Part shown: one piece after another, positions 3,956 to 20,883 of the stretch
How positions within the stretch are numbered: the stretch's first letter is position 1
Layout: each line of letters begins with the position of its first letter
Assembly (NCBI GenBank): GCA_036784855.1
Contig: JAZDSV010000096.1
Coordinates: 1 to 32,258, forward strand
Direction: 5' to 3'
DNA from: Aphelidium insulamus
Taxonomy: Eukaryota > Aphelidiomycota > Aphelidea > Aphelidiaceae
Length of the DNA stretch: 32,258 nucleotides
Notes under the pieces: model-generated
Database searches by the model: none
What the model was told of the DNA's origin: nothing
Seen by the model: only the letters and a program-made list of their open reading frames with translations
Translations under genes and position numbers: made by a program

Positions 3956-4576
3956 TCACTGTAGAGCCGCAGCGGCCAGTTGACGGCCACGCGTTCATCG
4001 GCCGCGCTGAAGGCTTATCTACGTCACCGCAGCCTGAATTGTAGTAGCCGCTCGTTTGCGCAGATCGCCGTTCTCCTCGCACTCCAGGTGCCAGGTAGAA
4101 AAATAGTGACACGTAATGCGAGAAGCGTCTTCACTACCAGCGGCACTTAAATGCTCAGAAAACATTCGCGACCGCGTCAGAGTCCAGCAAAGCATCAGCA
4201 AACACTGCTCAGTAGCCGCAGGTGACTGTGCCGTCATTTTCTTGAACAGACGCGATACATTCGGGTTGAGCAGCGGGTGCACTGTAACTGTTTTGGGGCC
4301 GCCTCTTCCCTGCTCGACTTTAAATAGTGGCTGCTGATGGGCAACTCGGCTGAAGCAGCTGGTGGCGGCATCGCCGGTGTTTTCTGCATCCACACTGATC
4401 TCTTCACCGGGATCTGCCGCTTCGATCTCGGTCATTTCGACTTCAAGCCCATCATCGCTATCATCACTGTCATTGTCGTCCTCTGCCGCGGCATCCACCG
4501 GCTCCTCCGCATCAGCCGTAATGAGTGAAACATCGGCGCGTAGTGTGCCGGCCATTATGCGAAGTAGCTGCATCAT
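3956..4576 (-). pseudogene. Frameshifted copy of amplicon gene A
   Basis: Minus-strand copy of gene A. The first roughly 70 residues, including the start MMQLLR and the acidic stretch, are nearly identical to the intact copy. A short out-of-frame segment of about 20 codons follows, restored by a second indel, and then the frame is lost again near the C-terminus so that reading stops at about 4019 rather than at the normal stop at 3956. It starts next to array 2, as intact A starts next to array 3. Function unknown; probably non-functional. Confidence 0.8.
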
Positions 4577-4665
4577 GTTCTCCTGAAAAGGTTTTACGAA
4601 CAGTGAGGGTTGGGTTCAGACAACCTCGACACTGGCTCTGTTAAACAGTGCGGTGCTCGCGGAAA

Positions 4666-5240
4666 CCTGTCGCGTGGATTCTTTAGTAGTGTCAAGGCCA
4701 ACAGGACGCAGACACACACAGCTAGTAGAATCTAACACCCTTTATTTACCTGTCGCGTGGATTCTTTAGTAGTGTCAAGTCCAACAGGTCGCAGACGCAC
4801 ACAGCTAGAATCTAACTACCCTTTATTTACCTGTCAGCGTGGATTCATTTAGTACTGTCAAGACCAACAGGACGCAGACACACACAGCTAGTAGAATCTA
4901 ACACCCTTTATTTACCTGTCGCGTGGATTCTTTAGTACTGTCAAGACCAACAGGACGCAGACACACACAGCTAGTAGATCTAACACCCTTTATTTACCTG
5001 TCGCGTGGATTATTTAGTACTGTCAAGACCAACAGGACGCAGACACACACAGCTAGTAGAATCTAACACCCTTTATTTACCTGTCGCGTGGATTATTTAG
5101 TACTGTCAAGGCCAACAGGACGCAGACACACACAGCTAGTAGAATCTAACACCCTTTATTTACCTGTCGCGTGGATTCTTTAGTAGTGTCAAGGCCAACA
5201 GGACGCTGACACACACAGCTAGTAGAATATAACACGACGG
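4666..5240 (+). repeat. 83-bp minisatellite, array 2 (7 units)
   Basis: Seven head-to-tail copies of an 83-bp unit, period measured from successive 'gcgtggatt' occurrences (for example 4676 and 4759). Each unit contains 'ctttatttacctgtcgcgtg', a 'caagaccaacaggacgcag' core and 'acacacacagctagtagaat'. It separates the 5' end of minus-strand A (4576) from the 5' end of plus-strand D (about 5250). I infer that it is the intergenic spacer of a divergent gene pair and may carry promoter or enhancer functions. That is not shown by sequence alone. Confidence 0.95.
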
Positions 5241-5247
5241 TACTTGT

Positions 5248-5786
5248 TTGCCAGCTACCTTAGGTAGTCAGACGGTAGCCTGGCATCGCTACATATACGC
5301 CTGGAAATCAAATGGCGCAAAAATCGTCTCAGTGGCCGGCGAGGACATGGCAAGTGTGGCGATGACTTTGGAGATCGCAACTACGAAATCTACCGCAATT
5401 GGGCGGAGACGTCGACATATGACCCGCGAGTTACAGCTATCTTCGCACCATCAGTCGATATTATTCGCTCGCCGCTGGCTCCTGCACCAGCACTCGGCGT
5501 ACCCATTCTGGCAGAAGCCCAATCAATCGTTTGTCACTATGCGCCGCTCATGGAAGCCGATTTTGCAGCGAACCCACGTCCACCAATTGCCGGTCCGCTT
5601 CCAGCGCCGCCTTTTGATGTCCATGTGCAGCATGCCAAGGTGGCGGTTTCTGCGTTGCTTTCGCGAATTGCAAATCCGGGTGCGACATTTCCGATGATTG
5701 ACGCCTTGCCTACCGGATCATATATCTGCACTGTCATGCAGGTTTGGGCGAACGTGGTTGTAGACATTTCGCTTTTCAAGCATTGA
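5248..5786 (+). pseudogene. Copy of gene D with an internal deletion
   Basis: Plus-strand copy of gene D. The 5' leader up to 'catcgctacatatacg' (about 5308) joins directly to 'cctggaaatcaaatggcgc', removing a segment of roughly 240 bp that encodes the basic N-terminal region in other copies. Downstream the C-terminal 78 residues (5550-5786) are intact and match the right-hand copy at 7953-8189 essentially throughout. Positions 5787-5902, as in the other units, separate D from C. Probably a pseudogene. Function of D unknown. Confidence 0.8.
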
Positions 5787-5902
5787 AGTTTGAGGGTTTG
5801 AGCATTCGACATTGAGCAGTACATATAATAAAGAAATCGCATTTGCACGAATGAAAATACTAAACGATCAATACCAACAACATTATCCAGCAATATACAA
5901 CA

Positions 5903-6019
5903 ATGCAGTCAATAGCGGCCGAGTGCACCGATTGAAGCACACGTACGATGAATGCTTCAACCGGGTGGTACGCCAACGACTTTCTCAAGGGCGACCTGAC
6001 GCAGCATCCGTGCCAAGGT
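5903..6019 (+). pseudogene. Truncated gene C at the inversion junction
   Basis: Plus-strand copy of the TRIAP1/Mdm35-like gene. The ATG at 5903 begins as in the intact copy, but one T is missing after the first cysteine motif, giving an in-frame stop. The homology ends abruptly after the codons for HPCQ at about 6019, where the sequence switches to the interior of gene A. This is the breakpoint between the inverted left part and the right part of the block. Confidence 0.8.
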
Positions 6020-6025
6020 GGCGAT

Positions 6026-6450
6026 GCCGCCACCAAAGCTGCTTCAGCCGAGTTGCCCATCAGCAGCCACTATTTAAAGTCGAAGCGGGAAGAGGCGGCC
6101 CCCAAAACAGTTACAGTGCACCCGCTGCTCAACCCGAATGTATCGCGTCTGTTCAAAGAAAATGACGGCACAGTCACCGCGGCTACTGAGCGTGTTTGCT
6201 GATGCTTTGCTGGACTCTGACGCGGTCACGAATGTTTTCGAGCATTTAAGTGCCGCTGGTAGTGAAGACGCTTCTCGCATTACGTGTCCACTATTTTTCT
6301 ACCTGGCTTACCTGGAGTGAGGAGAACGGCGATCTGCGCAAACGAGCGGCTACTACAATTCAGGCTGCAGTGACGCAGACAAACTTTCAGGCGCGGCCCG
6401 ATGAACGCGTGGCCGTCAAATTCATGGCCGCTTTAGAAGCTCTACAGTGA
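6026..6450 (+). pseudogene. 5'-truncated copy of gene A
   Basis: Begins inside gene A at the codons for GDAATKAASAELP; the acidic N-terminus and start codon are missing because of the junction with gene C at 6019-6026. It also carries a one-base insertion near 6160 (four A residues more than the intact copy allows in frame) and a two-base deletion near 6319 that creates a TGA. The original stop is retained at 6448-6450. It cannot give the normal product. Confidence 0.85.
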
Positions 6451-6568
6451 AGTCTATTTGCCACCTCCACATAGAAGCCAGTTAACAACAAGCACCGTCC
6501 GTGCTGTCATTGTCTTACATAGCTGCGTGTTTCTGTAAAGTGCCAGTGTGCATCTGTGCAATTGTGCA

Positions 6569-7415
6569 ATGACCGCGACTAGCAGCAACGGCGCAACAGT
6601 CAAGAAAAGGTATTTCGGAGCGTCGTGTCAGACACATACAGTTATCTTTACCACGCTGCAGTGCATCCCGGTCTCGTCTGACAGCCGGCGGCGGCGGCAC
6701 GGTAACAATGGGCGCGGCACGGCGAAGAGTTGCGCCACCACCGCAACAACAACAACAGCCCCATCAGCAACGTAATGGCGGCGCCAGACCGCTGGGACAT
6801 ACCAGCGCACCGCCACACGAACGCCGATACACGACGCACAGCTACTTTGGGAGCACGTTGCGCGACGTGGCCGCCGACAACAGCGCCACCCTGGTGATCA
6901 TACCGCAGACATCCACGGAACTGGAGTTGCGCAAGAAAATGTTCAAAGTGTACAAGGAGTCGCAGATACGGAGCGCGCGCGACTACGAGGCAAAGTTGCG
7001 CGCTCTGATACAGGCGGACGCGGAGACGGTGGATGTGCGCGTCAACCAGTGGTAAACCAAGCGCTACCTGTTCCTCAAGAAGGATCTGGCGTCCGGCGCC
7101 GTGAAGCCCGAACAGTTTATAGCGTTCGATGAGCGCACTGTCAAGATGCTGCGAGGTGGTGACGGAGGCGACGATGATGCAGCCGCTGCTGCGGCAAACA
7201 GCACCGTGCCGACGGATCCTTTTCTACTAAGTTCCGCTGTGGCGATGGCAGTCGACGTACAACAAGCACCGCCCACGCCGCCAAAAGCTGCGCCACAGTC
7301 GCCGACGACGCCAAAACTACGAATCGACCCGCGCAAGGCGAATGCCTCCGCCCTGACTGCGCCGCAACCGTCTCCGAACCAGCAGGCGTCGGCGCGGTCT
7401 GTGCGGCCCGTTTAA
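6569..7415 (+). pseudogene. Copy of gene B with an internal stop
   Basis: Nearly identical to intact gene B at 10360-11206, including the possible first exon (ATG at 6569), the 52-nt candidate intron and the Gln/Pro-rich start of exon 2 at about 6708. At 7053-7055 the intact reading 'ggataacc' is replaced by 'ggtaaacc', which gives a TAA after residue W in the central helical region. The frame stays open after this stop to 7415, so this is a recent or single lesion. A sequencing error is possible. Confidence 0.75.
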
Positions 7416-7554
7416 TCTACTCAATAAACTCTCGCTGTATGCCGTCTTGTCGCGCCCATCTGCTGTGCCACAGTGATATTGCAGTTACACGCTCTATTGC
7501 CGGCCGCCATCTCGGCCGTCGCTCGCCCCGCTACCGAATACCGAGGCGGTGCTC

Positions 7555-7835
7555 TCACGTCGCGCCTCCTGCAGCTGTGACTCTATCTTCTTGCGTCGCA
7601 CCGTCACCTGCAGTCATAGTATTAGTGCGTGCCTGCCAATGATAGTGCACGCGCGGCCAACCGCGTGCAATAGAGAAAGAGCCACGCACCAGCACGCACG
7701 CCTTGTACTCTTCAAATAGCTCTTGGCACGGATGCTGCGTCAGGTCGCCCTTGAGAAAGTCGTTGGCGTACCAGCGGTTGAAGCATTCATCGTACGTGTG
7801 CTTCAATCGGTGCACTCGGCCGCTATTGACTGCAT
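7555..7835 (-). pseudogene. Frameshifted copy of gene C (TRIAP1/Mdm35-like)
   Basis: Minus-strand copy with ATG at 7835. One base is missing at 'gtgcttcaatcgg' compared with 'gtgcttcaaatcgg' in the intact copy, so the natural frame stops right after the first cysteine. An upstream ATG reads in the downstream frame and gives an apparent 113-residue ORF in which the first CX9C is disrupted, while the second ([11 protein letters not shown]) is intact. I regard it as a pseudogene unless the missing base is an error. Confidence 0.7.
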
Positions 7836-8704: not shown

Positions 8705-9521
8705 GTCGTGTTATATTCTATCAGCTGTGTGTCAGCGTCCTGTTGGCCTCGACACTACTAAAGAATCCACGCGACAGGTAAATAAAGGGTGTTAGATTCT
8801 ACTAGCTGTGTGTGTCTGCGTCCTGTTGGTCTTGACACTACTAAAGAATCCACGCGACAGGTAAATAAAGGGTGTTAGATTCTACTAGCTGTGTGTCTGC
8901 GTCCTGTTGGTCTTGGACAGTACTAAAGAATCCACGCGACAGGTAATAAAGGTGTTAGATTCTACTAGCTGCGTGCGTCAGCGTCTCTGTTGGCCTTGAC
9001 ACTACTAAAGAATCCACGCGACAGGTAAATGAAAGGTGTTAGATTTCATTAGCTGTGTGTGTCTGCGTCCTGTTGGTCTTGACACTACTAAAGAATCCAC
9101 GCGACAGGTAATAAAGGGTGTTAGATTCTACTAGCTGTGTGTGTCTGCGTCCTGTTGGTCTTGACAGTACTAAAGAATCCACGCGACAGGTAATATAGGG
9201 TTGATATTCTACTAGCCGTGTGCGTCTGCGTCCTGTTGGTCTTGACAGTACTAAAGAATCCACGCGACAGGTAAATAAAGGGTGTTAGATTCTACTAGCT
9301 GTGTGTGTCTGCGTCCTGTTGGTCTTGACAGTACTAAAGAATCCACGCGACAGGTAAATAAAGGGTGTTAGATTCTACTAGCTGTGTGCGTCTGCGTCCT
9401 GTTGGTCTTGACAGTACTAAAGAATCCACGCGACAGGTAAATAAAGGGTGTTAGATTCTACTAGCTGTGTGTGTCTGCGTCCTGTTGGCCTTGACACTAC
9501 TAAAGAATCCACGCGACAGGT
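8705..9521 (-). repeat. 83-bp minisatellite, array 3 (about 10 units)
   Basis: About ten units of the same 83-bp minisatellite as array 2, in inverted orientation ('aaagaatccacgcgacaggt' is the reverse complement of the array 2 core). A few units have small deletions. It lies between the 5' end of minus-strand D (8695) and the 5' end of plus-strand A (9609), so the arrangement mirrors array 2 exactly. Confidence 0.95.
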
Positions 9522-9608: not shown

Positions 9609-10241
9609 ATGATGCAGCTACTTCGCATAATGGCCGGCACACTACGCGCCGATGTTTCACTCATTACGGCTGATGCGGAGGAGCCGGTGGATGCCGCGGC
9701 AGAGGACGACAATGACAGTGATGATAGCGATGATGGGCTTGAAGTCGAAATGACCGAGACTGAAGTGGCAGATCCCGGTGAAGAGATCAGTGTGGATGCA
9801 GAAAACACCGGCGATGCCGCCACCAAAGCTGCTTCAGCCGAGTTGCCCATCAGCAGCCACTATTTAAAGTCGAAGCGGGAAGAGGCGGCCCCCAAAACAG
9901 TTACAGTGCACCCGCTGCTCAACCCGAATGTATCGCGTCTGTTCAAGAAAATGACGGCACAGTCACCGCGGCTACTGAGCGTGTTTGCTGATGCTTTGCT
10001 GGACTCTGACGCGGTCACGAATGTTTTCGAGCATTTAAGTGCCGCTGGTAGTGAAGACGCTTCTCGCATTACGTGTCCACTATTTTTCTACCTGGCTTAC
10101 CTGGAGTGCGAGGAGAACGGCGATCTGCGCAAACGAGCGGCTACTACAATTCAGGCTGCAGTGACGCAGACAAACTTTCAGGCGCGGCCCGATGAACGCG
10201 TGGCCGTCAAATTCATGGCCGCTTTAGAAGCTCTACAGTGA
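9609..10241 (+). CDS. Amplicon gene A, unknown protein, intact copy
   Basis: Open frame of 210 residues and the only full-length A copy in the window. I do not recognise the family. Residues 22-66 are strongly acidic (repeated D/E/S), followed by a more hydrophobic, probably helical region with an HPLLNPNVSRLF segment around residue 101 and a C-terminal helical part ending EALQ. There is no signal peptide or membrane segment. The start is the first of two adjacent ATG codons; 83-88 bp upstream lies the end of array 3. It is divergent from the D copy at 7953-8695 across the array and co-oriented with gene B 119 bp downstream. That the reading frame survives while sister copies decay suggests past or present coding function. 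Confidence 0.65.
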   Translation: MMQLLRIMAGTLRADVSLITADAEEPVDAAAEDDNDSDDSDDGLEVEMTETEVADPGEEISVDAENTGDAATKAASAELPISSHYLKSKREEAAPKTVTVHPLLNPNVSRLFKKMTAQSPRLLSVFADALLDSDAVTNVFEHLSAAGSEDASRITCPLFFYLAYLECEENGDLRKRAATTIQAAVTQTNFQARPDERVAVKFMAALEALQ

Positions 10242-10359
10242 AGTCTATTTGCCACCTCCACATAGAAGCCAGTTAACAACAAGCACCGTCCGTGCTGTCA
10301 TTGTCTTACATAGCTGCGTGTTTCTGTAAAGTGCCAGTGTGCATCTGTGCAATTGTGCA

Positions 10360-11206
10360 ATGACCGCGACTAGCAGCAGCGGCTCAATAGTCAAGATAAG
10401 GTATTTCGGAGCGTCGTGTCAGACACATACAGTTATCATTACCACGCCGCAGTGCATCCCGGTCTCGTCTGACAGCCGGCGGCGGCGGCGGCACGGTAAC
10501 AATGGGCGCGGCACGGCGAAGAGTTGCGCCACCACCGCAACAACAACCACAGCCCCGTCAGCAACGTAATGGCGGCGCCAGACCGCTGGGACATACCAGC
10601 GCACCGCCACACGAACGCCGATACACGACGCACAGCTACTTTGGGAGCACGTTGCGCGACGTGGCCGCCGACAACAGCGCCACCCTGGTGATCATACCGC
10701 AGACATCCACGGAACTGGAGTTGCGCAAGAAAATGTTCAAAGTGTACAAGGAGTCGCAAATACGGAGCGCCCGCGACTACGAGGCAAAGTTGCGCGCTCT
10801 GATACAGGCGGACGCGGAGACGGTGGATGTGCGCGTCAACCAGTGGATAACCAAGCGCTACCTCTTCCTCAAGAAGGATCTGGCGTCCGGCGCCGTGAAG
10901 CCCGAACAGTATATAGCGTTCGATGAGCGCACCGTCAAGATGCTGCGAGGTGGTGACGGAGGCGACGATACAGCCGCTGCTGCGGCTAACAGCACCGTGC
11001 CGACCGATCATTTTCTACTAAGTTCCGCTATGGCGATGGCAGTCGACGTACAACAAGCACCGCGCACGCCGCCAAAAGCTGCGCCACAGTCGCCGACGAC
11101 GCCAAAGCTGCGAATCGACCAGCGCAAGGCGAATGCCTCCGCCCTGACTGCACCGCAACCGTCGCCGAACCAGCAGGCGTCGTCCCGGTCGGTGCGGCCC
11201 GTGTAG
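10360..11206 (+). CDS. Amplicon gene B, unknown protein, intact copy
   Basis: The main exon reads from at least 10502 (234 residues). A likely first exon is 10360-10400, with a 52-nt intron (10401-10452, GT...CAG) joining in phase to give 264 residues in all. The same exon and splice signals are conserved in the sister copy at 6569. I do not recognise the protein. It has a Gln/Pro/Arg-rich N-terminus, a central charged helical region (from about ELELRKKMFKVYKESQIRSA to FDERTVKMLRGG), an Ala run, and a Pro/Thr-rich basic C-terminus with TPPK and TPK motifs. No membrane or signal segment is visible. It follows gene A in the same direction and converges with gene C. Confidence 0.6.
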
Positions 11207-11413
11207 ACTGCTCAGCATACTCCCGCTATTGCCGTCTTATCGCGTTCCGGCGCACTGCACAGCAGGAAATCCCATTTACACACACACACTCTCTCTATTG
11301 CCGGCCACCATTCTCGCCCGCAGAGCCACCAAATACCGAGGCGGTGCTCGCGTCGCGCCTCCTGCAGCTGTGACCGAGCTTTGCTCTCGGCACCGTCACC
11401 TGCAGTCATAGTA

Positions 11414-12110
<697 letters not shown>

Positions 12111-12226: not shown

Positions 12227-12796
12227 TCAAATCTGCACGACGGTGCAGATATATGATCCGGTAGGCAAGGCGTCAATAATCGGAAATGCGGCACCCGGAT
12301 TTGCAATTCGCGAAAGCAACGCAGTAACCGCCACCTTGGCATGCTGCACATGGACATCTAACGGCGGAGCTGGAAGCGGACCGGCAATTGGTGGACGTGG
12401 GTTCGCTGCAAAATCGGCTTCCATGAGCGGCGCATAGTGACAAACGATTGATTGGGCTTCTGCCTGAATGGGTACGCCGAGTGCTGGTGCAGGAGCCAGC
12501 GGCGAGCGAATAATATCGACTGATGGTGCGAAGATAGCCATAACTTGGGGGTCATATGTCGACGTCTCCGCCCAATTGCGGTAGATTTCGTAGTTGCGAT
12601 CTCCAAAGGTCATCGTCACACTGGCCAGGTCCTCGCCGGCCGCTGAGACGATTCTCGCGCCATTTGATGTCCAGGCGTCCACGACAGATTTAGGCACGCG
12701 CTTCGACGCCAATTTCGCGCGCTTGGCGCCAACACGACCTTCAGTCGACGGGGTGTGGGAAGCCGGCAGATCGCGATCGCTCGACTTTTTTTGCAT
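12227..12796 (-). CDS. Amplicon gene D, unknown protein, best copy
   Basis: From the ATG at 12796 this reads 189 residues. A GTG-initiated extension of five codons is also open. I do not recognise the family. The N-terminus is basic and Ser-rich (about residues 1-40), followed by a segment with VVDAWTSNGARIVSAAGEDL and FGDRNYEIYRNWAE that could be a small globular domain. A proline-rich linker follows (about residue 120), then a final hydrophobic part. A TGA replaces the Trp codon found in the copy at 7953-8189, so about 13 C-terminal residues are lost. It lies 5' to array 4, as D does in all units. It may be functional or slightly truncated. Confidence 0.55.
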   Translation of the reverse strand: MQKKSSDRDLPASHTPSTEGRVGAKRAKLASKRVPKSVVDAWTSNGARIVSAAGEDLASVTMTFGDRNYEIYRNWAETSTYDPQVMAIFAPSVDIIRSPLAPAPALGVPIQAEAQSIVCHYAPLMEADFAANPRPPIAGPLPAPPLDVHVQHAKVAVTALLSRIANPGAAFPIIDALPTGSYICTVVQI

Positions 12797-12944
12797 TTTT
12801 TCTTCACACACAATGCAATTCTGCCGTGCCGTCTAACAGATGATACGTCATCGCGTCCCGCCTTATCGCGACCCGCGCTTACGTATATGGAGCGATGCCA
12901 GGCTACCGTCTGACTACCTAAGGTAGCTGGCAAACAAGTACCGT

Positions 12945-13285
12945 CGTGTTATATTCTACTAGCTGTGTGTGTCTGCGTCCTGTTGGTCTTGACAGTACTA
13001 AAGAATCCACGCGACAGGTGTTAGATTCTACTAGCTGTGTGTGTCTGCGTCCTGTTGGCCTTGACACTACTAAAGAATCCACGCGACAGGTAAATAAAGG
13101 GTGTTAGATTCTACTAGCTGTCTGTGTCTGCGTTCTGTTGGCCTTGACACTACTAAAGAATCCACGCGACAGGTAAATATAAGGTGTTAGATTCTACTAG
13201 CTGTGTGTGTCTGCGTCCTGTTGGTCTTGACAGTACTAAAGAATCCACGCGACAGGTAAATAAAGGGTGTTAGATTCTACTATCA
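12945..13285 (-). repeat. 83-bp minisatellite, array 4 (4 units)
   Basis: Four units in the same orientation as array 3, marked by 'aatccacgcgacaggt' near 13003, 13076, 13158 and 13242. The first unit lacks the 'aaataaaggg' part. The array ends abruptly in a partial unit at 13281 and is followed by the second copy of the 380-bp segment, not by gene A. Confidence 0.93.
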
Positions 13286-13689: not shown

Positions 13690-13979
13690 TCGTGCAAATG
13701 CGATTTCTTTATTATATGAACTGCTCAATGTCGAATGCTCAAAGGGTCACCACTTCAGTGCTTGAAAAGTGAAATGTGTACAACCACGTGCTTCCATGAG
13801 CGGCGCATAGTGACAAACGATTGATTGGGCTTCTGCCAGAATGGGTACGCCGAGTGCTGGTGCTGGAGCCAACGGCGAGCGAATAATATCGACTGATGGT
13901 GCGAAGATAGCTGTAACTTGGGGGTCATATGTCGACGTCGACTTTTTTTGCATTTTTTCTTCACACACAATGCAATTCT
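13690..13979 (-). pseudogene. Gene D fragment with two deletions, left of the mobile element
   Basis: Minus-strand remnants of gene D: its 3' end (13690-13789), a middle piece starting at 'gcttccatgagcggcgcat' (to about 13938) and the poly-T leader piece (13938-13979). The second deletion joins 'gtcgacgtc' to 'gactttttttgc' and probably used the shared TCGAC. The fragment stops at 13979 exactly where the mobile element starts. Its continuation is found at 20241. Confidence 0.85.
13973..13979 (+). repeat. Direct repeat CAATTCT, left flank of the element
   Basis: The heptamer lies at the end of the left gene D flank and is repeated at 20241-20247 at the start of the right flank. Uninterrupted D copies read 'tgcaattctgccgtg' (about 12815-12829), with the heptamer once. 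It is therefore either a target-site duplication or a shared recombination core. Confidence 0.85.
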
Positions 13980-13986
13980 TCTTCCG

Positions 13987-14030
13987 ATTGTGCACCCAAT
14001 CTCGGCCCATTTTGCACCCTGAAAGTGCAC
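13987..14030 (+). repeat. Left subterminal ATTGTGCAC-type motifs
   Basis: ATTGTGCAC at 13987-13995 and AAGTGCAC ending at 14030, with a partial TTTGCACC between them. The same motif occurs five times near the right end. The inverted form TGCACAAT at 20217-20224 lies about 16 bp from the right boundary, and the left motif lies 7 bp from the left boundary. Possible binding sites for an element-encoded protein (inference). Confidence 0.6.
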
Positions 14031-14536
14031 CCGGCGGCCCATTGTCCGCCGCTGTCACAGCCGCCACACACTGCACCGCAGCCAGTGCCGCCACCACTAC
14101 GCCACGGCACCCTATATGCCACATGCAAGCTCTGCTCCGGGCTACGTACCATTCTTGCCATGCCTTGCCTCACCCGTCTTCATAGGCAGCTTGGTGTTGC
14201 GGCCCTGGGATGCACCCAGCCGTCCACTGCCACAGCCGCCACACTACACTGCCGCCACCACTGCCAGAACTACGCCATGGTGCACTGCTTGCAGCCCTGA
14301 CACAGCTACGTACAATCATACGCTGTCACACTCACCTACTATGCACAGTCATGCCAGTACTAGTTGCCCATGGCCATTATGATTCCCAGCGGTATGTCAC
14401 GTGATGTGCAGCTTCTCATCATGTAGTACAAAGCAATATAAGCAAGCAATATCATTGGCTGGCCAGCTGGTGTCACAATGGTTGAATGAGTGACTTGGTG
14501 AGCTGCACTGCTGCACTTCTCTCAAACTGACACATA
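14031..14536. other. Left terminal region with a diverged internal repeat and resolvase upstream region
   Basis: Two diverged direct copies of a CA/GC-rich segment are visible, about 14030-14150 and 14210-14310. They share 'cacagccgccacac', 'gccgccaccact', 'ctacgcca' and 'gctacgtac'. ORFs here are low-complexity and I do not believe they code. A possible TATA-like 'atataagc' lies near 14437-14444, about 95 bp before the resolvase ATG. Confidence 0.5.
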
Positions 14537-15340
14537 ATGCCACAGATTATTGATCTGACCGCCGACTCTGACATTGAACTGATGTCATCTGCACTGCCTG
14601 GTCAACATATGCAAGTGGTACAAGATACAGCTGGCACTTTGGGCATCTCTGATCCTTTTTCTAGTGAAGATGGTTGGTCCAGTGACAGTGGCACTGAAAC
14701 GGCCAGCACCAGCAGCAGCACAACAAGTACCACCACTCGTGGAGTGCTTCGCATCTCGTATGATATTGGAGTTATCAATGCTGCTGTGTGTGCCATTGAT
14801 GAAAGTAGTCTAGATGTGGTCCTTTGGCAGATGGTTGGTTTTGGCACTGAACCGCTGGCAACAGATGCTCTTGCTCGAGACGTAGTCAGGCATGTCAACT
14901 GGTTGCTGGCAACAGTGACTTATCCACGAAATAGCATTGTTGTCTGTGTGGAGACTCAGCCAAAGAAAATGCAAGGCAATTTCAACCTGAAGACTGTTCT
15001 CAATAACAACATGGTGGCACAGGCGGTATGTGCAGCATATGAGGCTTTGGGCGTGACTACTACTTGTATTATGTCAGCAAATGTGCAGACATTCTTTGGT
15101 CTGCCCAACACCAAGCAGAAGAAGGCAGCAGCTACAAGAGTGGCTCGATTCTTGGTCAGTCAGGACAGTGCAGTATCTGGTATCAACATTGGTCAGCAAT
15201 TTGCAGCTTACTTTCTAGCTTCACAGAAGAAGGATGACTTGGCTGATGCTCTGCTGCAGTGCCTGTTTGCAATCGAGATGTGGAAGCAAAAGGTTGGAGT
15301 GCATATGGAGAAGATCAAGGCATCAGTTGTGGTAAGCTAG
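14537..15340 (+). CDS. RuvC/A22-like Holliday-junction resolvase (RNase H fold)
   Basis: Single exon of 267 residues. From about residue 71 it has the layout of the poxvirus A22/mitochondrial Ydc2 resolvase family: an aspartate in ISYDIG (D76) in the first strand, a glutamate in VVCVETQP (E139), and a C-terminal KKDDLADALLQ (231-241) with D233, D234 and D237. These are the expected acidic metal-binding positions of the RuvC-type RNase H fold. Known members cleave four-way junctions and related branched DNA. The first 70 residues are disordered and Ser/Thr-rich and begin with IIDLTADSDIE, a good match to a SUMO-interacting motif. The gene is convergent with the recombinase gene, 94 bp away, and a polyadenylation-like AATAAA follows the stop at about 15376. 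It is the only plus-strand gene of the element. Confidence 0.85.
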   Translation: MPQIIDLTADSDIELMSSALPGQHMQVVQDTAGTLGISDPFSSEDGWSSDSGTETASTSSSTTSTTTRGVLRISYDIGVINAAVCAIDESSLDVVLWQMVGFGTEPLATDALARDVVRHVNWLLATVTYPRNSIVVCVETQPKKMQGNFNLKTVLNNNMVAQAVCAAYEALGVTTTCIMSANVQTFFGLPNTKQKKAAATRVARFLVSQDSAVSGINIGQQFAAYFLASQKKDDLADALLQCLFAIEMWKQKVGVHMEKIKASVVVS

Positions 15341-15434
15341 TAAGCCTCATTAATCCAGTGAATTAGTTGAAGTGAATAAAAATCAAGTAATAATTTATAA
15401 TTGAAAACTGAAAAGGTGTCATATATTGAAGATA

Positions 15435-16659
15435 TTACTGAGCACATCTAGGGCAAGGCATTTTGCAGGCCTGGCAACTGCGTGACAGCTCTATCTTCTT
15501 CACATGATGCAGAAATTCACCTCGAGGGCATGCCTGTGTGTCAAGCAGACTTGTGAGGTATCGCACAATTGTCAAGTTGTCAAATGCTAATGACCAACCA
15601 CCCCAGTCACATAGCTTTTTGAGATCCCAGCGTTCTTCCTTTGGCTCCATAAAACAATGAAAGTATTGACATCCTCCGCGTCTAAAAGAATGTGTTCCAT
15701 ACTGATCTTCATTTAGTACCCCCGCCAGCTTCAGGTTTTGGTGGAGATTCAAGCAAAATGCACGGGCAGTCAACTGGCTACCCATCATTCCTGGATAAGA
15801 GCCTTCCTCATGCGCTAGATATGCCACAATCCTTTCGGCCAGTGCTTCATTTTCCTTGGACCCATGGTTATGACTCATACCTCATAGGCAAGAGCAGGAT
15901 TACCACGCCATGAATTTCCTTCACGATGGTAAAAATTTTCTCGCGTTTTGTAATGCTCGGCAAACTTTTTTGATATTGCTGCTCGAATTTTTCGACCGGT
16001 TCCAAAGGATAGACCTTCGCAGCCAACGTATTTACCGCCAGCAACAGTATTCTTATTTTCACATTTCTTCATGATATACATCGTAATTAAATGTGGAGTC
16101 TGTTCGTCGCGGCTCAGAGGATTATACGTCGGCGACTGCAACGTTTGTTTCACAAACGCGGTATAATTTTCAAATATTCTGCATTGTTATGTATGTGTTT
16201 CTTTACAATCATGTAGCATTACCTGTCCTGTTCCGCATTCCCTCTTGGATGATTTGCCTCCCGTCGAAGGGTGTGTGACAAGGCTGTCACTTCCTCGTAA
16301 CCCGCCAAATCTGCCTCATCATCGGTGTCATTGTCATACTCGGCAAATGCCTCCTCCCCCGTCGGTCGAGGCACCCCGGTATCACTTCCTTCCTCAACGC
16401 TTGCCACATCAGCGGTGACCGGTAAAACAACTTCACTCGAGCTACTGCCTTCTTGCTCGGCAACTACTGGTGAAATATTGTTCATTGGCTCGTCATTTGG
16501 AGGAACAACAGGCACAGTGGCATCAATTGGTGCGCCATTTTTCATAATCTTGATGCGCTTGTTCAATGATCCTATAGTGCGCACCTGCTGGTTGATGCCG
16601 GCCTGGTTGATGCAAGAGGTTGCAGATGTATGTGTACGTGATGTAGCTGCGCGCGGCAT
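15435..16659 (-). pseudogene. Tyrosine recombinase, apparently lacking its box I region
   Basis: Exon 1 is 16659-16223 (acidic, disordered, about 145 residues). A 44-nt intron (16222-16179, GTAATG...TGCAG) joins in phase to exon 2 (16178-15881), which encodes IFENYTAFVKQTL and later LSFGTGRKIRAAISKKF and GNSWRGNPALA, typical of the N-terminal SAM-like domain of eukaryotic tyrosine recombinases. The remaining ORF (15878-15435) holds box II, YGTHSFRRGGCQYF, then LCDWGGWS and LTIVRYL with the expected catalytic His, Arg, Trp/His position and Tyr. The roughly 100-150 residues normally between GNP and box II, including the first catalytic arginine, are missing, and the two ORFs are in different frames. 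The C-terminus carries CQACKMPCPRC, a possible zinc-binding knuckle. I call it internally deleted; an unseen splice pattern cannot restore sequence that is absent. Confidence 0.75.
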
Positions 16660-16706
16660 ATTTTTGCGAAGATGATTGAAGAAAAATGGTCAAAAGGGGG
16701 TTGCCT

Positions 16707-18143
16707 CTATTGGGCGCTTTGATCAGGAGTCGATTCTTGCAAAAGGCTTTGATGAAACGCACACGCCGTTTCATTTGCGCGAATTTTATGTGGGTTGAAA
16801 TTAGCAATAGTTAATCCCGACAAGCTTTTGACGCGAGAGAGGGCAACATATATCTGGCCCTCGGCAAATGCATCTTCAAGATCGACGTGCACTGCATCCA
16901 GTGACATTCCTGGAAAAAAATGAAAGGTTACATGTAAGTGGTATGCGGCATACCTTGACTTTTGTGTACTGTTAAAGCATGGGCCAAGACTATTGGAAGC
17001 TGATAACGAAAGCTCCTTGTGGCGCCTGGAATTTCAAAAGAAACTGCCGCTACAATGAACATCTCTACCAACAAATGAATTCAAGAATACGATGCTTGTA
17101 CACAAATCTTCTCACCGGAAGAGTTGTCCACGCCTACAACCGGGTAGCCTGAGCGAAAGTCAAGTACAGTGCCAAGCGTTCCATTGCATACTCCGCGACT
17201 GGGAAAGTTTCGAGTAAACATGATTCGAGATGATTTCTTCAAAGTTATCCTTGGCGCACAAACTTTGTCCAGCGCAGACAAAACATTCTTACGAAGCACT
17301 CCGTTATGCCATTCGTCCACCGCGTCGTACGTGTAAACGTCTCCACGTGTTGCAAATAATTTTTCATTATTAAAACGGTTGACATAGTCAACCTTGCAAA
17401 AGAGATGAATGCAATGCTTCAACGTTGGCGAAGTTGGAATTGCGTTAAAAAACCTAATAGTGTCCGTATTGGCCTGGAAATTAAGGTTGTATTCCTTTGG
17501 TAATATAAGAATCGTACCTCACCAATTCGGATGAGATTAAGATGCTTTACCAGAAGATCGTCATTCTGGCGATATATCGTGTCAAGAGATATTTGATTTG
17601 TGCCAAAAACAAGCGGCCAGCTTTCCGCTTCAAATGCAAAATGCACGGGATTTGATACAGGCGGAAGTTGCAGAAAGTCCCCGCAAGCAATTACTTGAAG
17701 GCCTCCGAATGGCTTCCTCTGATCTAGTAAGCGACGCCCGCACCACTCTAAATTTGTGAAATATCGTTTGGATATCATTGATATCTCGTCTATAACTAGC
17801 GTTTGCGCTTGAATCCAATTAGACTTAATTTTCTTCAGCTTCATGTTGATGGACGTTTCGTCATCGCTGTCGCCAAATCCAGCCCAAGAATTGATGGTCT
17901 GGCCAGTGGGAAGCATTTCGGACGCTTTACCCGTAGATGCCGTAACTTTTACCTTCACATGACGCGCTCGGAGCCCATCAATAATTTTCTCAAGCAGGAA
18001 CGATTTTCCCGAGCCAGCGGGCCCTGTAATGAACACATTTTTGCCCTTTACAAGATAAGATAAATCTTGTTCATACTTGCATAGCTTACCTCATTAGCCA
18101 GCTCCAGGACACGTTGCTGGGCAGCTGATGGCGAAAAATCCAT
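16707..18143 (-). CDS. PIF1-family DNA helicase, five exons, complete
   Basis: Exons 18143-18090, 18045-17518, 17473-17116, 17064-16954 and 16909-16707 sum to 1254 nt, 417 residues, with all phases matching. Introns are 44, 44, 51 and 44 nt. Motifs in order: Walker A GPAGSGKS (residues 26-33), motif Ia-like TASTGKASE, Walker B VIDEISM (about 102-108), GDFLQLPPV (about 140-148), a YRQNDD arginine-finger region, then ALTVHKSQGMSLD and YVALSRVKSLSGL near the C-terminus. These are the signature motifs of PIF1/RecD2-type 5'-3' helicases of SF1B. The protein is shorter than cellular PIF1 and lacks an N-terminal extension, like helicases of mobile elements and viruses. It starts 27 bp after the neighbouring gene's stop and ends 47 bp before the recombinase start. 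Likely role: unwinding during element replication or transfer (inference). Confidence 0.88.
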
Positions 18144-18170
18144 GGATCAAAAAGAAAATTTTTATTTAGG

Positions 18171-19461
18171 TCAATGTTCACTATCAAGTCCTTCAGCCGA
18201 ATCTTGAAGATTGTCAGACGGTGTCCAGTCGTCCCACGCAGTTGGTAACTTCTGATAATCTCTCAACAAGGTGGAGGCAATCGTCTTGTTACTCAGTATA
18301 CGATCTGAATTTGGCGCACGATACTTGGTGGAAAATTGATCTGGAGTAAGTCTTGCAATTTCTTCCTGTAACAGTTGCTTTTGCTTTTGGGCGTTTCTAG
18401 TACCAAGAAGACTGCAAACTTTGGAGAATGTCAAGCGTTTCCCTTGAAACCCATAAAGTTGTTCAAATCGCTCCAGTGTCAGCCGCTTCACTTCGGCGTT
18501 GAAACGGCGAATGTATCCAATCTTATTACGAATATTGTGCCGCAAACGAACCACATATTTATCAGCTTTGTGGATTTGACATAATTCCTCGATTTTTTCG
18601 ACGACGGGGAGCGCATTTATGGCATCTTCCCAAGATTTGATTGATGGAACGGCCGGAATCTCAACGGAGTGTCCGTGTTTTGTGCCTTTATGCCTCTCAC
18701 GTTCTTGGTGAGAAGATGTTTGCGAATCGACTGATTGACTTGGTGCAATCTGCGATAATGGCAGCTGAATTGAGCTGTGTGGAAGACGGTCTGCATTCAT
18801 TTGTTCGCCCGATGTAATAGTCACGGCGTCATTGGTTAATGGCTGAATTTCGGTTCGGCTGCGAGAAGATACCTGGTGAACTGCTGGCGCAGTCTCAACC
18901 GCAACAGTAGCAAGAGGAACTTGCGTTGCTTGACTCAACGTAATGCCTACATGGTTGGCTGAATATCTTACTGACAATTTCTTACTTGGCATGCGTGGAG
19001 TTACAGTCGCCGCTGTGTTGACACGAGCAGCCTTTTGTACCCTGGCAAGATCATCGTCTTCCAGCCACTCCACATCACGTTTTTCAACTGCCTACATAAC
19101 TCATCGTACGAGTGTGAAATCATGTTCCGTGTCTTACATGATCAAGGTAGCCACTTAGTTGTAGGTACGTGCCGGGATTTCGCCGTGTGTTCTGGCGCGA
19201 ATTCGGTAGTTCCATCGTCTTTCTGGCCGGAAGAGATAAGAAGTCTTGTATAGCTTGCACATAGTTTGCCTTGTTATTTTTCGACGGTTGGCAGTACTGC
19301 TTATCAAACAATTCTGGTGACTGTTTAGAAGCCTTCTTGCATGCCAAGGATATTTCTTGCAGCGCTTTGTTCTTCAGGCACAGTAGCGACATTTTGGAGT
19401 CTACGAGATGTTTCTCCAGCACCAAGTTCAGATTATTGTCGTTAGTGGCGCGATAAGTCAT
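18171..19461 (-). CDS. Element protein of unknown family with three helical repeats
   Basis: Exon 1 is 19461-19138 (108 codons) and exon 2 is 19091-18171. The 46-nt intron (GTAAGA...TATGTAG) is in phase 0, giving 414 residues. I do not recognise the family. Three segments share a pattern of a helix (EI..L), F/Y positions ('F...Y') and an ending near LP: about residues 32-79, 304-339 and 348-391. The first and third are the most alike ('ELFDKQY', 'DQFSTKY', then 'FLSLP' and 'YQKLP'). Between repeats 1 and 2 lies a Ser/Thr/Pro/Gln-rich, probably disordered linker with a basic patch. Such small repeated helical units often bind DNA, and the protein may recognise the subterminal motifs of the element (inference). 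Confidence 0.65.
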
Positions 19462-20240
19462 TTATATTCAATAAAGAAACGTGTGCCGTCGCTGGATCGT
19501 TGTGTTAATCTACATCGAAGCCGGATGCATGGCAATCGCGATCTTATTTCCACCAATGGCGCAAAAGATCGCATTGGCTGCATCCGCTGGTGAAGTCGTT
19601 AAAATATATGTACAATTATATCATAAAGTATTGTTTAATAAGAACGTATAGTATAGAAAAATGAACCTATTGCCATAATATAATAGAACTACAGGCTATA
19701 GCCATATAATGGCTGCGTATAGCTGGCTGCGTATAGCTGACGTGTATAGCTTTAATGCATTAGTATTAACATTGGCACTAAATGCACTAAATAAAGCTAA
19801 AAGTTTACGCTAATTCGGGGGATAATTTCAATTAAGGGGTGCACAATTTAGTCTTAGCTAGAATAAGAATGACATTATTGTGCACTTTTTGCTTGTTAAT
19901 TATTGAGTTGCTGATTGAGCAAAGTGCACAATGCAGCACGCGTTTTTGTGGAAGCTTTGAAATTGTGCACTTTTGGCTGATTGGCTGGCGCAGTATTAAG
20001 CACCGTCGTGCTTGACATGCCATAACTCACTGACCAGAGGTCCATATATCATATAATTTACATTAACAGATAGCTTATTTCATGGGCTTTTATTTGGTAT
20101 TACTGCTGGCGTCGATACTCTACTGCTGCCGATGTAATGCTACGCCGACACATTTTTCATACTTAGCGAAATTAATGTGAATCAATACTTAACAAATACC
20201 CATACTATAACCCACCTGCACAATACATACCGCGAACACC
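19462..20240. other. Right terminal non-coding region of the element
   Basis: AT-rich sequence of 779 bp with no convincing ORF. It contains a short direct repeat, 'ggctgcgtatagctggctgcgtatagct', followed by a third related 'gacgtgtatagct' (about 19710-19750), then the ATTGTGCAC cluster at 19839-19970. It probably holds the promoter of the three-repeat protein gene as well as the right recombination end. The last 20 bp before the boundary are 'aatacataccgcgaacacc'. Confidence 0.6.
19839..19970. repeat. Cluster of two inverted ATTGTGCAC pairs
   Basis: GTGCACAAT at 19839 and 19924 and ATTGTGCAC at 19877 and 19962 alternate in orientation. Start-to-start spacings are 38, 47 and 38 bp, so they form two equally spaced inverted pairs. 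The same motif is found at 13987 and, inverted, at 20217. This symmetric layout is typical of binding sites for a multimeric DNA-binding protein (inference). Confidence 0.75.
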
Positions 20241-20385
20241 CAATTCTGCCGTGCCGTCTAACAGATGATACGTCATCGCGTCCCGCCTTATCGCGACCCG
20301 CGCTTACGTATATGTAGCGATGCCAGGCTACCGTCTGACTACCTAAGGTAGCTGGCAAACAAGTACCGTCGTGTTATATTCTACT
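20241..20385 (-). pseudogene. 5' leader part of the interrupted gene D copy
   Basis: Continuation of the D copy split by the element. 'caattctgccgtgccgtcta' and the following leader match 12823-12955 closely up to the start of array 5. The first seven bases (20241-20247) are the second copy of the CAATTCT direct repeat. No coding capacity remains. Confidence 0.85.
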
Positions 20386-20553
20386 AGCTGTGTGTGTCTG
20401 CGTCCTGTTGGTCTTGACAGTACTAAATTATCCACGCGACAGGTAAGTATAAGGTGTTAGATTCTACTAGCTGTGTGTGTCTGCGTCCTGTTGGTCTTGA
20501 CAGTACTAAAGAATCCACGCGACAGGTAAATAAAGGGTGTTAGATTCTACTAG
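20386..20553 (-). repeat. 83-bp minisatellite, array 5 (2 units)
   Basis: Two units in the orientation of arrays 3 and 4, marked by 'tatccacgcgacaggtaa' near 20430 and 'aatccacgcgacaggtaa' near 20512. The array ends within a unit at 'gattctactag' and joins a gene D fragment directly, which is a recombination junction. Confidence 0.93.
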
Positions 20554-20883
20554 CGAATAATATCAACTGATGGTGCGAAGATAGCCATAACTTGGGGGTC
20601 ATATGTCGACGTCTCCGCCCAATTGCGGTAGATTTCGTAGTTGCGATCTCCAAAGGTCATCGTCACACTTGCCAGGTCCTCGTCGGCCGCTGAGACGATT
20701 CTCGCGCCATTTGATTTCCAGGCGTCCACGACAGATTTAGGCACGCGCTTCGACGGCAATTTCGCGCGCTTGGCGCCAACACGACCTTCAGTCGACGGGG
20801 TGTGGGAAGCCGGCAGATCGCGATCGCTCGACTTTTTTTGCTTTTTTTTTCACACACAATGGAATTCTGCCGTGCCGTCTAAC
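20553..20883 (-). pseudogene. Gene D fragment, right edge of the duplicated block
   Basis: Minus-strand internal part of gene D, closest to the copy at 12227-12796, starting at 'cgaataatatc' next to the minisatellite and extending to 'gccgtctaac' at 20883. Reading from the D leader it gives the basic N-terminal region and the FGDRNYEIYRNWAE segment, then stops at the junction. Sequence after 20883 is unique, so this is where the duplicated block ends. Confidence 0.85.

Follow-up and report, generated by a model that had tools for sequence, protein, structure and literature searches.

A probable Crypton-like tyrosine recombinase transposon with a predicted Holliday-junction resolvase gene in Aphelidium insulamus

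What kind of genetic element combines a tyrosine recombinase (YR), a PIF1 helicase, a Holliday-junction resolvase and a fourth protein with faint internal repeats, and what would a junction-cutting enzyme do beside a recombinase? The question is raised by contig JAZDSV010000096.1 of Aphelidium insulamus (assembly GCA_036784855.1), whose full length of 32,258 nucleotides we refer to as the window; it is the whole of contig C3 in the genome that we searched (17,953,404 bases in 169 contigs). The original prediction, made from the letters of the window, had placed these four genes in a single element at 14537..19461 and had considered both a Crypton-like transposon and the remnant of a virus or plasmid. 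Our answer is that the locus is a Crypton-like YR transposon in which the resolvase serves as a working accessory, a reading to which we would give a probability of roughly three in four. It draws on the exact ends of the element and on the recurrence of the resolvase beside different recombinases in the same genome.

Ends, genes and copies of the element

The four genes do lie in one element, which is larger than had been proposed: it spans 13973-20247 (6,268 bp with one core counted) and is surrounded by host repeats. Each end carries the same 7 bp core, CAATTCT. At the left (13973..13979), homology with the copy on contig C18 begins and a host repeat forms the flank, and at the right (20241..20247), homology with the copy on C112 stops and a host repeat lies beyond. 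What is more, the window contains an empty site, namely a related host repeat without the element at 12774..13118, with a single CAATTCT at 12816-12822. Alignment pairs the left flank (13933-13979) with 12774-12822 and the right flank (20241-20554) with 12816-13118, such that the two matches overlap by exactly CAATTCT, present once in the empty repeat and at both ends of the element. The C18 copy likewise begins at CAATTCT, its unrelated flank lying within an open reading frame (ORF) that looks ankyrin-like by eye, and the C112 copy stops at CAATTCT, also with an unrelated flank. The joins thus fall at CAATTCT in all three insertions examined, C18 and C112 showing one end each. Taken together, the repeated core, the empty site and the further copies support the proposal that a Crypton-like element integrates here by means of its recombinase.

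The window copy differs from the C112 copy by 12 mismatches in 2343 columns and from the C18 copy by 6 in 2061 and 14 in 1827, and because these mismatches are so few, the sequences indicate that the element has recently been mobile. Note that differences among such young copies are often short indels, possibly sequencing errors (32 of the 35 gap runs between copies are 1-2 bp), and that they include few synonymous or non-synonymous changes. A fourth copy, on C82, is decayed and extends to neither end. The C18 copy has a fuller YR gene than the window's, its resolvase frame is shifted, and it contains nothing to the right of window position 17922. This break (C18:12438) and the end of contig C112 (C112:112640, window 17906) lie within 17 bp of each other; the likeliest explanation is an assembly break where the copies diverge, and the copy number of the element may therefore be underestimated.

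The positions of the four genes and the gaps of 94, 47 and 27 bp between them are confirmed. The YR, PIF1 and fourth genes have introns with GT...AG ends, 44-54 nt long where placed by script. In the window copy the resolvase frame is uninterrupted, as are those of PIF1 and the fourth gene after splicing. The recombinase gene (15435..16659, minus strand; first intron 16222-16179) is present as predicted and is not whole: 81 bp at 15782..15862, without similarity to any other DNA compared, replace about 540 bp of coding DNA in the C18 copy, which encode the first catalytic Arg together with the Lys. With part of the catalytic domain of its YR missing, the window copy is probably unable to move by itself. 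As a family, these recombinases have the catalytic residues of Cre-type enzymes and match a Cre profile. In Pfam scans of the element genes we found neither a DDE transposase nor a reverse transcriptase, the absence of the latter setting the element apart from DIRS-like retrotransposons, and the YR is the only recombinase that was recognised.

In this sense, the element resembles Cryptons, CryptonF in particular: a YR is the sole recognised recombinase, no terminal inverted repeats are reported in the element, and the ends carry short direct repeats. Cryptons are recognised by end repeats of about 4-6 bp and by the lack of long terminal repeats, and the 7 bp CAATTCT stands at both ends here. 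In a second class of element, represented by contig C93, the end repeat is probably the 6 bp TATTTA, again Crypton-like. The C86 copy of that class repeats TATTTA; its right end is tentative, with the C93 contig ending there and another TATTTA lying 35 bp beyond. The element differs from Cryptons in adding a RuvC/Ydc2-type resolvase and, in the subfamily of the window, PIF1 and the fourth gene; in the available part of Kojima and Jurka 2011 (PMC3212892), Cryptons are described as encoding a YR and, in some cases, a C48/Ulp1 peptidase as accessory gene. Crypton recombinases fall into groups with GCR1_C/NDC10 domains in CryptonF and DUF3504 in animals; the window-type YR, compared with these by Pfam match and not in a joint tree, has no GCR1_C or NDC10_II match at E <= 1 and matches no Crypton family of Pfam. 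Starships are likewise YR-driven DNA transposons of eukaryotes and are reported to reach up to about 700 kb; the present element measures 6.3 kb, and its 374-aa YR has no DUF3435 match at E <= 1 in the Pfam scan, no dedicated profile comparison having been made.

The closest recombinases that we found are agaricomycete and aphelid proteins named 'DNA breaking-rejoining enzyme', with up to 44% identity over 94% of the length; they were compared as proteins, with the exception of one contig. Namely, among contigs of prokaryote genomes there was a single relative, L084 (VBAU01000226.1), which is fungus-like, encodes an agaricomycete-type YR with no resolvase beside it, and is filed under a Bacteroidetes metagenome-assembled genome, where it is likely a contamination.

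Several further features were noticed on these contigs. Arrays of an 83-bp tandem repeat, in both orientations, occur at 4665-5235, 8708-9521, 13017-13282 and 20371-20554 of the window, beside the target repeat of the element. Blocks at 6020-7806 and 9810-11599 are 90-100% identical at a spacing of about 3.79 kb and enclose frames without a Pfam match. Finally, C18:12439-21052 holds several related ORFs that look ankyrin-repeat-like by eye, at least one of them with a hydrophobic N-terminus, and one is split by the C18 copy of the element.

The resolvase and its recombinase partners

The resolvase gene (14537..15340, plus strand) is a single open frame of 267 amino acids with an N-terminal IIDLT motif. 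The description of its product as A22/Ydc2-like proved sound, and we assign it to the Ydc2 type because relatives, profiles and predicted fold agree, the window sequence alone being insufficient: by itself it matches Pfam Ydc2 at E = 0.34 only, and as a single-sequence query it retrieved no protein at E <= 0.001. In profile comparison, the match to Ydc2 reaches 8.6e-21; the structure model (pLDDT 81) has a RuvC-like fold, supported by fold matches; and both the family profiles and the fold of Ydc2/Cce1 and poxvirus A22 are matched. A search with a five-sequence alignment gave 240 proteins at E <= 0.01 among 8000 candidates scored, and the relatives among the 120 matches listed mostly have Ydc2 or Pox_A22 domains. 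Residues D76, E139, D233, D234 and D237 align with the acids of 1kcf and, C33 excepted, are either invariant or conserved to at least 90%; these correspond to what we take to be the catalytic acids of Ydc2, A22 and RuvC resolvases (D, E and DxxxD/DD). Judged by sequence and model, then, the protein is a resolvase with the RuvC/Ydc2 fold and its catalytic acids, and is predicted to cleave junctions. One could also suppose that recombination is the work of this RuvC-like protein, as in IS110 elements, with the YR as the accessory, an idea that we regard as scarcely credible.

The element enzyme shares fold, catalytic acids and family profiles with the mitochondrial Ydc2/Cce1 and poxvirus A22 resolvases, and differs from them in being encoded by a transposon beside a YR and in having an N-terminal [VI]DLT motif where several Ydc2 relatives have a SAP domain. 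This motif lies near the N-terminus in all five element resolvases that were aligned (from four lineages, plus the near-copy on C33), the tails being otherwise dissimilar. Among the 120 listed relatives, six have the five-letter DLT pattern within the first 80 residues; it precedes the fold in P0001-P0003 and lies at about residue 30, probably inside the fold, in P0008, P0063 and P0116. The C48/Ulp1 peptidase family includes SUMO proteases, and [VI]DLT fits what we assume to be the consensus of a SUMO-interacting motif, such that a link of the resolvase N-terminus to SUMO may be followed up as a lead.

How often, then, does such a resolvase accompany a recombinase? Two protein searches of the genome placed resolvase matches on ten contigs (C3, C18, C82, C167, C93, C86, C63, C33, C113 and C139), and on seven of these (C3, C18, C82, C93, C63, C139 and C167) coding sequence for a YR catalytic domain lies within 3 kb of the resolvase. 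In total, YR matches occur on 13 contigs, 6 of them without a resolvase match. Because the 3-kb neighbourhoods of the 13 YR loci make up about 0.4% of the genome, pairing in 7 of 10 cases is far beyond chance, though some of the loci are copies. As for the other three contigs, C86, which is internally deleted, has part of the C93-type YR gene; C33 has no more than 931 bp in common with C63 and is without a YR in the 3.5 kb examined; and on C113 the genome-wide YR searches gave no match. Judging from the sequences, there are about four independent lineages, namely the window type, C63, C93 together with C139, and C167. The aligned resolvases are 27, 29, 27 and 36% identical to that of the window, and C139 is 34% identical to C93. 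The YR partner on C167 is of the CryptonF type, with NDC10_II (3.7e-18) and GCR1_C (8.4e-13) domains. Co-occurrence at other loci is thus seen for the pair of YR and resolvase, against the suggestion that the genes would not be found together elsewhere; the full set of four is confined to one subfamily.

This pairing bears on the view that the element is an ordinary cut-and-paste Crypton with cargo, in which host genes, namely PIF1 and perhaps also the resolvase, were captured and have no role in movement. The resolvase adjoins at least three YR types at 27-36% resolvase identity, and open resolvase frames with the catalytic acids persist in all four lineages (C3, C93, C63 and C167); chance capture would not be expected to repeat itself in this way. 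What favours capture is a grouping, with weak support (82/80), of element resolvases with Ydc2-like proteins, including those of Allomyces. In the same tree, the C3 and C167 resolvases group at 100/99 despite their different YR types, those of C93 and C63 group at 99/92, and the element resolvases form one clade in none of 200 bootstrap trees. A single origin of these enzymes may nevertheless be envisaged, and module exchange or repeated recruitment could possibly lie behind the pattern.

Two further loci deserve mention. A second YR family is represented by one open frame of 623 aa at C94:22568-24436, with copies 94-99% identical at C82:4222-5752 and C105:2259-3039; there is no resolvase match on C94 or C105. 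Upstream of the resolvase and YR on C63, at 4000-7711, lie a RING-finger ORF and an ORF of 760 aa that includes an SF1/PIF1-like helicase domain; the frame after the 760-aa ORF continues the helicase motifs and has, by eye, an HNH-like end. This helicase region may belong to another, perhaps virus-like, element.

The helicase, the fourth gene and the end motifs

The PIF1 gene (16707..18143, minus strand) encodes 416 aa once four introns of 44, 44, 54 and 44 nt are spliced out. Its main exon matches Pfam PIF1 at 5.7e-31, and residues 7-406 match PIF1 of solved structures at 8.5e-61, such that the helicase core extends over the whole length. The element differs in this from Helitrons, its PIF1 being a helicase core without any HUH Rep domain in the Pfam scans; compared with the Helitron helicase of Helraiser, it scores 4.5e-25. 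Of 21 matches to the PIF1 profile in the genome, those that accompany the YR and resolvase pair are on C3, C18 and C112 only.

The fourth gene (18171..19461, minus strand) encodes 414 aa with one intron of 46 nt (19137-19092). It had been described as a three-repeat protein; the gene is there, and its threefold repeat is weak, with shuffle p values of 0.007 and 0.003 in two of the three pairwise comparisons. It has no Pfam match at E <= 1, occurs in the genome on C3 and C112 only, and shows no convincing link to the third genes of the other element classes. Its resemblance to a gene beside the L084 YR (p 0.003, with several comparisons made) is a lead. Structure prediction gave for its second exon a poor single-sequence model (pLDDT 45), too poor to search with.

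It looks as if PIF1 and the fourth gene were added within a single subfamily, and the element PIF1 may be a captured host gene. Indeed, that this helicase is far nearer to cellular PIF1 than to Helraiser, and that it joins the pair in one subfamily only, are the further points for regarding the element as a Crypton with passengers; weighed against the repeated pairing of resolvase and YR, we consider that account of the element unlikely.

Short motifs are clustered near both ends. One TTGTGCAC lies at 13988..13995 on the plus strand, 8 bp inside the left core, and four more, in alternating orientation (19839-, 19878+, 19924- and 19963+), occupy 19839..19970, 271-402 bp from the right core, with letters identical in the C112 copy. 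A further partial motif, ATTGTGCA on the minus strand, is found at 20217..20224, 16 bp inside the right core. The window contains 7 TTGTGCAC against 2.9 expected, a number reached in 6 of 100 shuffles, and the remaining two lie outside the element. As regards their placing, AC-rich 8-mers aside, only TTGTGCAC and an overlapping neighbour among the 8-mers of the window pass a cluster filter (four copies spanning 31-140 bp, at least 3 different letters), and when the end regions were put through 500 plain shuffles, no left-end 8-mer ever turned up four times in the right end. The C93 class has a motif of its own, ACTGAATC, all five copies of which in the 6.3 kb examined are close to an end, no more than about 70 bp from the left one or 220 bp from the right one. 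That the two classes each own a motif near both ends would fit, as expected, sites bound by a protein of the element.

An array of alternating motifs, in a unit that encodes a YR and a resolvase as well as a helicase, also recalls an integrating circular plasmid of the 2-micron type, which would replicate extrachromosomally from the array and use the YR for copy control, integrated copies being by-products. Such a plasmid seems distinctly improbable to us, given that all three sites examined show precise insertion at CAATTCT and that several classes of YR and resolvase elements are integrated.

The other possibility raised at the outset, an integrated remnant of a phaeovirus or Polinton-like virus that retained integrase, helicase and an A22-like resolvase, is disfavoured and very improbable. 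Some of these viruses do combine a YR or integrase with an A22-like resolvase or a PIF1-like helicase: in the portions available, Ectocarpus endogenous viruses are reported to have an A22-like resolvase and to integrate by recombination between att sites (PMC13236599), and a PIF1-like helicase is reported for Tlr1, as is a YR for some Polinton-like viruses (PMC4642659). Giant-virus resolvases match the fold of the element's resolvase, and the unusual 760-aa helicase ORF of C63 stands beside such a pair. That said, the element has exact ends at 6.3 kb and is therefore a unit, not an arbitrary remnant; no structural gene such as capsid, and no polymerase or packaging gene, was recognised in ORF and Pfam scans of its genes; five scans of viral contigs yielded no relative; and the relatives of its YR are fungal and aphelid.

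A possible mechanism and its meaning

Our search of open-licence PMC full text, with Repbase, preprints and most subscription papers outside its reach, found no YR transposon with a Holliday-junction resolvase or PIF1, and none is described in the available parts of PMC3212892, PMC5718144, PMC13236599, PMC8647823 and PMC4642659. The same portion of PMC3212892 mentions the proposal that Cryptons move in the form of excised circles. Following this scheme, the YR of the Crypton-like element would exchange strands between the two CAATTCT cores, freeing a circle with one CAATTCT that would then be re-inserted at another CAATTCT. The resolvase could cut four-way junctions where the exchange halts after one strand pair, in which case the element would be copied and not merely excised. 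Alternatively, it could cut junctions that arise from replication of the circle, perhaps started at the TTGTGCAC array and aided by PIF1. PIF1 would assist synthesis, and we propose that the fourth protein binds the array. Which particular junction the resolvase cuts is a matter on which our assignment is tentative and may well be wrong.

Going one step further, the resolvase may mark a branch of YR transposons that copies itself: a single strand exchange would be followed by a RuvC-type cut of the junction and a PIF1-assisted second copy, the resolvase perhaps being drawn via [VI]DLT to SUMO-modified sites of repair or replication. We regard this extended proposal as speculative and, as a whole, doubtful. 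To our knowledge, how Crypton-like elements gain copies is not settled. If true, a self-copying branch would provide a genetic answer to the copy-number gain of YR DNA transposons.

More generally, a junction-cutting enzyme that recurs beside different YR types suggests that the movement or multiplication of such elements involves a second enzymatic step, which is directly testable. In addition, the Ydc2/A22 resolvase family, beyond its place in mitochondria and large viruses, would be placed in eukaryotic transposons as well.

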